From assembly GCF_026385525.1 (NCBI RefSeq), contig NZ_JANIDY010000001.1, forward strand, positions 868,001-932,000: a DNA stretch of 64,000 bases. Direction: 5' to 3'. Every line of letters starts with the position of its first letter. The first letter of the stretch is position 1. The DNA is from Bombella pluederhausensis. Its GTDB lineage: Bacteria > Pseudomonadota > Alphaproteobacteria > Acetobacterales > Acetobacteraceae. Under the pieces are notes generated by a model. It was not told the DNA's origin and made no database searches. It saw nothing but the letters and a program-made list of their open reading frames with translations. The translations under genes and the position numbers were made by a program. Positions 35,002 to 36,929 of the stretch are shown one piece after another.

Positions 35002-35028
35002 TGTAACTACGTCAGAATAACAGACCTA

Positions 35029-35067
35029 CAAAAAGGGCCTCTTTCTCTCCCGGAAAGAGGCCCTTTT
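35029..35067. terminator. Bidirectional terminator after ppc
   Basis: AAAAGGGCCTCTTT and AAAGAGGCCCTTTT pair over 14 bp around a nine-base loop. A and T runs sit at the outer ends, serving both the ppc gene and the convergent monooxygenase gene. Confidence 0.85.
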
Positions 35068-35087
35068 CACATCTGATTCATTAGAGC

Positions 35088-35378
35088 TCAGAGTTCCCTA
35101 CACCAAATATTTTCAATCCTGCCGCCAAGGGCCTCAATGGCCTTAAAACTGGCCTGAACATGCTCCGAGGCCAGATGCGCCTGAAGGCTGGCTTCATCCG
35201 CCCATTCCTCATTAAGCGTGAAGACACCTTCTGTCTCTTTGTCCTCATACGCCACAAAGCGAAGGCAGCCCTCATCCTGCCGTGACCTCTGCACAATCTT
35301 TCTGAAAAGGTCTCTCGCTTGATTATGATGGGCTACCGGGAAACGGATAATCGCCGTCACACAGTCTTTATTGTTCAT
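35088..35378 (-). CDS. Antibiotic-biosynthesis-monooxygenase (ABM) fold protein
   Basis: This 96-residue single-domain protein has the dimeric ferredoxin-like ABM fold pattern: VTAIIRFPVAHHNQARDLFRKI, then CLRFVAYEDKET, FTLNEEWADEASLQAHLASEHV. Members include quinol monooxygenase YgiN and heme-degrading proteins. The substrate here is unknown. ATG 35378 begins MNNKDCV; a longer frame would overlap the CLC gene. It starts only five bases after the CLC gene stop, so it probably lies in the same transcript and under the same fluoride riboswitch. Confidence 0.78.
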   Translation of the reverse strand: MNNKDCVTAIIRFPVAHHNQARDLFRKIVQRSRQDEGCLRFVAYEDKETEGVFTLNEEWADEASLQAHLASEHVQASFKAIEALGGRIENIWCREL

Positions 35379-35382
35379 GTCC

Positions 35383-36723
35383 TCAAACCTTTGGCTCTTC
35401 TTTCCAGATACCTTCCCTCGTGCGGCGCAGAGCGATCCCCGGCACGAAATCAGGCCGCCAAATCTTGGGTACGCCGACCTTCTGGGACAGATAGATACCC
35501 GTATGGCCGGAACAGAGATAGGCGATGAAACAGCCTGTCGCATAATAGACGATATTCGTCCCCCCAAAGAGTTCCACCCCCATAACCGTACAGGCCAGCG
35601 GCGTATTCACGGCACCACCGAACACGGCCACCATGCCCACACCCGCCAGAAGATCACCAGGCACACCCAACACAGGCGCAAGAGCGTTCCCCAGCCCTGC
35701 CCCAACAAAGAACAGAGGCGTGACTTCACCCCCTTTATACCCTGTGGCAAGAGCAATGACGGTGAAGACCAGCTTCAGCAGCCAGCTCCAGTCATAATGG
35801 GCCGTACTGAAGAAATTGACGATGGAGGCCCCTCCTGCTTCCGGAGCCATGACACCCAACCCCAGATAATCCCGTGTTCCCAGAAGCCAGACCAGCAGAA
35901 TGGTCGCCACGCCACCAATGGCAGGCTGCAACCACGGTGTCGGGCAGATTTTCTTGATGATGGGGCTGAGCCTGTACACACCTTCCGCAAAAGCACGGCT
36001 GGCAAAGCCAAAGGCTACGGCAGCAATGGCAACCTTCACCCACAATACGGCATCAACATGAAACGGTACCTGCCCCGGTGCTGCAAGCCCCTTGAAGGTA
36101 ACAGGATAGACAGCGTGATGAATCCCCCACTGATGGCATGTCCAGTCTGCAATGATGGACGTCACCGCCACAGGGAGCAAAGCTGAATAATCCAATGCAC
36201 CAAGGGTCAAAACTTCCAGCCCAAAGACAGCCCCCGTAATGGGCGTGCCATACACGGCCCCCAGACCGGACGCCACACCGGCCGTTAGAAGGATACTCGT
36301 GCTGCGTTTATCCAACCGGAACCATGTAGCAAAACTGCTGGCAAGACTGCCCCCCATCTGTACGGCAGTTCCTTCTCGCCCCACGGACGCCCCAAAAAGA
36401 TGACTAACAACCGTCCCGATAAAGACCAGCGGCGCCATACGCAGGGGAACCCCTTCTGATGGCTTATGGATCTCATCAATAATCAAGTTATTGCCACCAC
36501 CAGCACGGCCGCCCCACCAATAATAGGACAGGGCCACAGCCACACCAGCAAAGGGCAACCCATACAGAATGGCCGGATGAACAAAACGATAATGCGTCAC
36601 CCACTCCAACATCCAGAGGAACAAGGCGCAAGAACTACCTACGACCACGGCCAGAGGCACAAGCAGGCCCAGCCAGCGCAGAAGATTCAACAAAAAAGAG
36701 ACGATTTCTTTAAAAGGCGGCAT
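35383..36723 (-). CDS. CLC-family channel/antiporter, probable fluoride exporter (CLC-F/EriC-F type)
   Basis: This 446-residue protein has the many-helix CLC membrane architecture. The filter motifs differ from chloride CLCs: GNNLI in place of GSGIP (about residues 77-81), GREGT in place of GREGP (about residues 115-119), and GYKGGEVTP in place of GIFAP near the last third. From memory these alternatives mark the fluoride-exporting CLC-F branch. A fluoride riboswitch directly upstream supports export of fluoride by F-/H+ antiport across the inner membrane. ATG 36723 (MPPFKE) has a Shine-Dalgarno (GAGGGAG) at the right distance; the frame also permits starts at 36750 and 36768, within the leader. 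Confidence 0.86.
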   Translation of the reverse strand: MPPFKEIVSFLLNLLRWLGLLVPLAVVVGSSCALFLWMLEWVTHYRFVHPAILYGLPFAGVAVALSYYWWGGRAGGGNNLIIDEIHKPSEGVPLRMAPLVFIGTVVSHLFGASVGREGTAVQMGGSLASSFATWFRLDKRSTSILLTAGVASGLGAVYGTPITGAVFGLEVLTLGALDYSALLPVAVTSIIADWTCHQWGIHHAVYPVTFKGLAAPGQVPFHVDAVLWVKVAIAAVAFGFASRAFAEGVYRLSPIIKKICPTPWLQPAIGGVATILLVWLLGTRDYLGLGVMAPEAGGASIVNFFSTAHYDWSWLLKLVFTVIALATGYKGGEVTPLFFVGAGLGNALAPVLGVPGDLLAGVGMVAVFGGAVNTPLACTVMGVELFGGTNIVYYATGCFIAYLCSGHTGIYLSQKVGVPKIWRPDFVPGIALRRTREGIWKEEPKV

Positions 36724-36772
36724 GACAGACTCCCTCACCAGTCCCTCCATATACGCTATGGAAGGCATTATT

Positions 36773-36846
36773 GGCAGGAATCATCAGCCTTTCCCGATGA
36801 ACCGGGTGGCGGTTCGGCCATTCTGGCCCGGTGGTAATCCATCACC
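36773..36846 (-). promoter_or_regulatory. Fluoride riboswitch (crcB motif) upstream of the CLC gene
   Basis: On the minus strand the leader reads GGTGATGGATTACCACC, then a GC-rich arm with a GAACCGCC segment, then GGCTGATGATTCCTGCC. This combination of a 5' GGTGATGG...CCACC stem with a 3' CTGATG-N-TCCTGCC is the conserved core of the fluoride-sensing crcB motif. A hairpin (CCTTCCATA / TATGGAGGG, about 36745-36768) follows and may be the expression platform. It ends about 50 bases before the preferred start codon. A TTGACA element lies at 36879-36884 but I see no good -10 at standard spacing. Confidence 0.88.
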
Positions 36847-36892
36847 TTTTTTCAAGGAAACACCATCATACGACCGTCTGTCAATACAGGCG

Positions 36893-36929
36893 TAAAAGAA
36901 AACCCTCCGCCAGAAACCTGACGGAGGGC
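36893..36929 (-). terminator. Rho-independent terminator of fusA
   Basis: CCCTCCG and CGGAGGG pair around a 12-base spacer. On the minus strand the stem is followed by TTTTCTTTT. It lies 32 bases past the fusA stop. Confidence 0.82.

Follow-up and report, generated by a model that had tools for sequence, protein, structure and literature searches.

The window, that is the whole stretch of 64,000 nucleotides from Bombella pluederhausensis analysed here, contains a CLC gene preceded by a fluoride riboswitch, and our data make it very probable that the two together form a fluoride-inducible exporter: the leader would adopt an OFF fold held by an anti-Shine-Dalgarno strand, Mg-fluoride would trigger its release and the CLC-F protein would be made. 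The aptamer, the identity of the exporter as CLC-F, its likely start, a conserved alternative pairing in the leader and the absence of FluC matches from the genus are computed results. A preliminary description of this DNA had proposed a fluoride-sensing and fluoride-export unit at this site, a proposal that is supported by the covariance model, the signature motifs, the nearest solved structures and a protein tree. For the most part, the system is an ordinary one, with a standard fluoride sensor placed before a standard fluoride exporter. The features of the unit and its flanks are as follows:

35027..35071, minus strand: intrinsic-terminator-like site after the ABM gene, in the gap to the convergent ppc (terminator scan)
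35088..35378, minus strand: gene for an ABM-fold protein (PF03992) of 96 aa (Pfam, 56.5 bits against a cut-off of 23.1)
35383..36723, minus strand: probable CLC-F fluoride/proton antiporter gene, 446 aa from the ATG at 36723 (PF00654, PDB matches, signatures, tree, comparison of starts)
36728..36734, minus strand: putative Shine-Dalgarno sequence GGGAGUC of the CLC gene (GGAGTC aligned just before the conserved ATG; GGAATT in L036)
36743..36765, minus strand: hairpin between aptamer and Shine-Dalgarno sequence, not followed by a U run (five of eight counted pairs changed on both sides among ten leaders)
36768..36855, minus strand: fluoride riboswitch aptamer (RF01734; cmscan)
36776..36782, minus strand: GAUUCCU, 3' strand of the aptamer and predicted anti-Shine-Dalgarno sequence (pairs with 36728-36734 in the consensus fold of ten leaders)
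36879..36884, minus strand: TTGACA, possible -35 element of a promoter of the unit's own, with no clear -10 (upstream alignment)
36903..36928, minus strand: inverted repeat and T-rich run after fusA, probable fusA terminator (read directly; aligned in the Bombella rows)

The covariance search upstream of the CLC gene returned RF01734 from end to end (36855-36768, minus strand; model positions 1-64 of 64; 42.3 bits against a gathering score of 34; E 2.3e-8), directly 5' of the CLC-F gene and on the same strand. The strings of the crcB-motif core that the preliminary description had reported for the minus strand are present there. This aptamer is the one RF01734 match in the genome of 2.0 Mb, and RF01734 is found above cut-off in all 11 genomes of the genus. 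Moreover, an Rfam scan of 20 CLC-F-like loci (L051-L060 and L092-L101, of which L051 lies within the genus) revealed an aptamer upstream of the gene, on the gene's strand, in 15 cases. PMC11139923 puts the share of CLC-F genes under riboswitch control at about 30%. As in other members of the RF01734 class, a full-length aptamer scoring above the gathering threshold is located 5' of a fluoride exporter gene, and the aptamer's 3' strand serves a second time in the expression platform. The Bombella leaders differ from the class in that they share a specific anti-Shine-Dalgarno helix around a covarying hairpin, which is a local detail and constitutes no new class.

Judged by its sequence, the CLC protein is a fluoride/proton antiporter of the CLC-F type. 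It matches PF00654 at 221.2 bits (Pfam) and carries GNNLI, GREGT and GGEVTP, as previously described, and thus all three signatures given for CLC-F proteins in PMC11139923 (GNNLI or GMGLI, GREGT/V, GEVTP). In the PDB, phmmer found three sequences at E up to 0.001, namely 6d0j, 6d0k and 6d0n, all of them CLC-F antiporters (209.5 bits). Enterococcus casseliflavus CLC-F (6d0j) shares the family and the signature motifs with the window protein, whereas its filter reads GMNLV in place of the Asn-type GNNLI, and the two sequences are distant. For the tree, 27 of the 42 proteins read were combined with 6d0j; 12 near-copies (L038, L039 and L041-L050) and three other CLCs (L063, L065, L066) were left out. 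In the resulting tree of 28 proteins, a single branch (support 100/99) separates 21 rows labelled CLC-F, among them the window protein, from seven other CLCs, the labels having been assigned beforehand from match strength. The branches of 6d0j, L069, L061 and L062 are long, which makes the place of 6d0j inside CLC-F unsure. Among named records, the nearest to the window protein come from Bombella dulcis (96% identity), Acetobacteraceae bacterium B3987 (95%) and B. mellum (93%), in a comparison from which the window genome's own records were possibly excluded.

Membership in the CLC superfamily would also accommodate a chloride-type CLC that happens to stand under a fluoride switch, and the sole NCBIfam matches of the protein are indeed to chloride-type or general ion channel models, all of them far below their cut-offs. 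However, the complete set of CLC-F signatures, PDB matches exclusively to CLC-F antiporters and the grouping in the tree away from chloride-type proteins leave this reading extremely improbable, and we retain the assignment to CLC-F. As a side observation, two CLC-F relatives, L057_b and L060 (genomes G075 and G039), which are paired in the tree with 100/100 support, are devoid of the GNNLI filter motif and have GRTG or FNHL at the aligned position; the L057_b copy lies in tandem behind a normal riboswitch-linked CLC-F in G075.

The longest CLC frame comprises 461 codons and begins with an ATG at 36768, where the aptamer match ends. Among ten related loci, four (L036, L037, L038 and L039, the latter three near-identical to one another) have an in-frame stop just upstream, and the sole remaining ATG aligns with position 36723. 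In-frame stops are also present in L032 and L033, further upstream. Therefore, comparison with these relatives places the CLC gene most likely at 35383-36723, encoding 446 aa, with the ATG at 36723 rather than that at 36768 as the true start.

How might the aptamer communicate with this start site? An alignment of ten leaders (window and L031-L039; L040 and L051 stand outside) gave a consensus fold in which GAUUCCU pairs with GGGAGUC, with the hairpin bridged between them, and all seven of these anti-Shine-Dalgarno pairs are formed in each of the ten leaders. In the 19-pair structure, 96.3% of the cells pair as compared to 40-58% after a shift of the partner strand by one to three columns, although the structure comes from these very sequences and so has an advantage over the shifted versions. 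Changes on both sides that keep the pairing occur in ten cells in five pairs, all of them in the hairpin (shuffled mean 3.3; reached by none of 500 shuffles), whereas further pair types are not raised (12, versus 13.5 on average in the shuffles, 486 of 500 of which attain at least 12). Changes in the anti-Shine-Dalgarno helix across the ten leaders are one-sided only, because its aptamer side is nearly invariant. In minimum-energy folds, the anti-Shine-Dalgarno pairing is present in 11 of 12 leaders, L051 included; in the leader from Saccharibacter, L040, it is not formed (probability 0.07-0.09). The window leader folds better than all of its 200 shuffles (z -3.44), with pair probabilities of 0.83-0.99 in the anti-Shine-Dalgarno helix. 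Holding GAUUCCU unpaired, as a mimic of its use in the pseudoknot, frees the bases of the Shine-Dalgarno sequence only in part (0.29, 0.41, 0.83, 0.39 and 0.02), in a nested model that cannot represent the pseudoknot itself.

These folds suggest that the riboswitch most likely acts on translation. A mode of action through transcription termination could draw on the strong hairpin between aptamer and gene and on PMC13273304, which describes fluoride riboswitches ending in intrinsic terminators, 323 of 1901 having worked in a transcriptional assay. Nonetheless, termination is improbable here: the hairpin lacks a following U run in all ten aligned leaders, which renders termination unlikely, the terminator scan reports no site on the minus strand between aptamer and gene, and the Shine-Dalgarno sequence lies within the helix that encloses the hairpin. 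According to PMC13273304, the terminators of transcriptional fluoride riboswitches involve pseudoknot nucleotides; the same paper offers precedent for an expression platform that competes with the pseudoknot, and it employs fluoride riboswitches of P. syringae and B. pseudomallei as translational controls. What is described here is consistent with this known scheme, and the leader suggests control of translation as in those riboswitches.

That the aptamer binds fluoride, that the switch works in the direction set out below and that the protein transports fluoride are inferences. In cells devoid of fluoride, GAUUCCU would pair with GGGAGUC across the intervening hairpin, and the exporter would be poorly translated. 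Upon binding of Mg-fluoride, the aptamer would close its pseudoknot with the same strand, thereby releasing the Shine-Dalgarno sequence, so that CLC-F protein would be made. The latter would exchange outside protons for cytoplasmic fluoride.

The unit is flanked by genes that we take to be fusA and ppc from reading their translations. Since an inverted repeat and a T-rich run follow fusA upstream of the unit, the latter probably has its own promoter; the terminator scan did not list this repeat. The TTGAC of the possible -35 element is kept in 12 of 13 aligned upstream regions, and a consensus promoter scan recognised no promoter upstream of the unit.

Bombella species are bee-associated acetic acid bacteria. 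Each of the 11 genus genomes encodes a CLC-F with at least 75% identity, and the preliminary description had noted that no crcB/fluC gene was visible, a statement that holds for the entire genome, in which PF02537 finds no FluC match. The same search was positive in 10 of 14 control genomes. Of all 147 genomes searched, 109 gave a FluC match; the 11 of the genus gave none. Among known types of fluoride exporter, riboswitch-controlled CLC-F is thus the only one found in these 11 genomes, for which reason an annotation of the gene as a 'chloride channel' would be wrong.

Fluoride riboswitches occur in other settings as well. One genome of the same family (G067; L120-L123) has six of them over cut-off and a seventh under it, with no FluC match and no CLC-F-like match (best CLC match at E 3.9e-11), that is, its exporter, if any, was not recognised; the ORFs beside these riboswitches include NUDIX, HEAT-repeat, DUF4129, MutS domain V and NADH-dehydrogenase-like proteins. 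At locus L124 (genome G046), five fluoride riboswitches are located within about 6.6 kb, near CLC-F, FluC, enolase and histidine phosphatase. At locus L094, a TPP riboswitch and a ThiC gene come after a CLC-F gene with its fluoride riboswitch, all on one strand (2856-2927, 1233-1330).

Behind the CLC gene, the window carries the ABM gene, a clear member of PF03992, whose ATG at 35378 follows the CLC stop after four bases (GGAC), confirming the direct succession noted before. The preliminary description had considered this gene an unusual partner under fluoride control. When the 11 genus loci (L041-L051) were read together with some 1.5 kb of flanking DNA on each side, ABM was seen behind CLC in two of them, namely L041, which belongs to the window genome, and L043 (genome G005; L033 is apparently on the same contig). 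The distance between CLC and ppc was measured in eight Bombella loci that lack ABM: in six it is 72-76 bases, while the gap amounts to 216 bases in B. mellum (L035) and to 145 bases in B. apis (L036). The B. mellum gap harbours a decayed ABM relic, with a score that none of 1000 mononucleotide shuffles reached with either reference. In B. apis, a weak similarity was reached by five of 1000 such shuffles with the L033 reference and by 368 of 1000 with the window copy, and since this score depends on the reference, we do not count it as a relic. The B. mellum relic implies that ABM was once more widespread and then lost, or that it was transferred. Comparison of the two intact copies yielded dN 0.041 and dS 0.567 (CLC: dN 0.025 and dS 0.497), and this purifying selection indicates that the surviving ABM gene is probably functional. 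A species tree from fusA and ppc of nine loci (L038 left out) does not resolve window, L031 and L033, which precludes a finer ordering of the gain and loss of ABM. Such proteins are common in B. pluederhausensis: three further relatives are encoded elsewhere in the window genome (G000), on contigs C7, C8 and C9, making four PF03992 matches in all.

Beyond two close species, a role of ABM as partner under fluoride control finds no support. We scanned 23 CLC-F-like loci (L051-L060 and L092-L104, L051 being of the same genus) for same-strand ORFs of at least 60 codons starting between 60 nt before and 600 nt after the CLC stop. L098 gave none, and the other 22 loci gave 45 ORFs, none of which is an ABM protein according to a Pfam scan. 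Among 397 genomes of the family searched, ABM homologues with 41-53% identity occur in five genomes of two other genera. The 16 kb stretches around the five best of these other-genus homologues contain neither an Rfam match nor a tblastn match (E up to 1e-3) to the CLC, FusA or Ppc of the window. Their neighbours include LacI-type regulators, a xylose-isomerase-like protein, an MFS transporter and a nitroreductase. Our literature search found no paper joining fluoride, riboswitch and antibiotic biosynthesis monooxygenase, and no fluoride link of the PF03992 family; for Bombella together with fluoride it turned up one paper, on bacteria of the cereal leaf beetle. On the basis of the genus loci, the other CLC-F loci and the surroundings of the homologues, we reject ABM as a conserved partner in a fluoride operon and conclude that it is no general fluoride partner and is co-transcribed at most incidentally. 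The case shows how an appealing operon partner can fail the comparative test.

A narrower proposal is that in these species ABM truly assists fluoride resistance as an accessory and that selection keeps it behind the riboswitch. The short gap to the CLC stop with a similarly tight junction in L033, the low dN relative to dS and the terminator-like site after ABM, which makes one transcript plausible, speak for it. Still, we regard it as unlikely by a wide measure, given that the gene is confined to two of the 11 loci and decayed in B. mellum, is missing from the ORFs downstream of CLC-F elsewhere, has its five nearest other-genus homologues at sites with neither riboswitch nor CLC-F matches closer than about 7 kb, and that our literature search found no paper connecting the family name with fluoride and riboswitches. 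As the switch apparently acts on translation, fluoride could control ABM only via translational coupling or mRNA stability. It is very unlikely, too, that a small Bombella clade recruited ABM as a fluoride-responsive accessory and lost it later where exposure fell. If this were true, ABM might, for example, clear a metabolite that accumulates upon inhibition of an enzyme by fluoride, and the B. mellum relic would be a trace of the loss. We therefore keep to incidental co-transcription at most, as concluded above.

With five matches, DUF190 (PF02641) is the commonest family among the 45 downstream ORFs: L054, L096, L097 and L099 are over the cut-off and L103 is just under it. We rejected DUF190 as a true partner, since it accounts for only five of the 45 ORFs, abuts the CLC-F gene in L099 alone and has no match in the 11 genus genomes. 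The distances from the CLC-F stop in the other cases are 44 nt (L054), 442 nt (L096), 412 nt (L097) and 187 nt (L103), and judged by titles, no link between DUF190 and fluoride is apparent in the literature. While the ORF directly at the CLC-F stop of L099 is thus DUF190, small ORFs of 121-142 aa, for which no Pfam family was found at E up to 0.001, take this position in L093, L096, L097 and L101. They represent a recurrent and tightly placed neighbour, starting at the end of the CLC-F stop in L093 and overlapping it by four bases in L096, L097 and L101.
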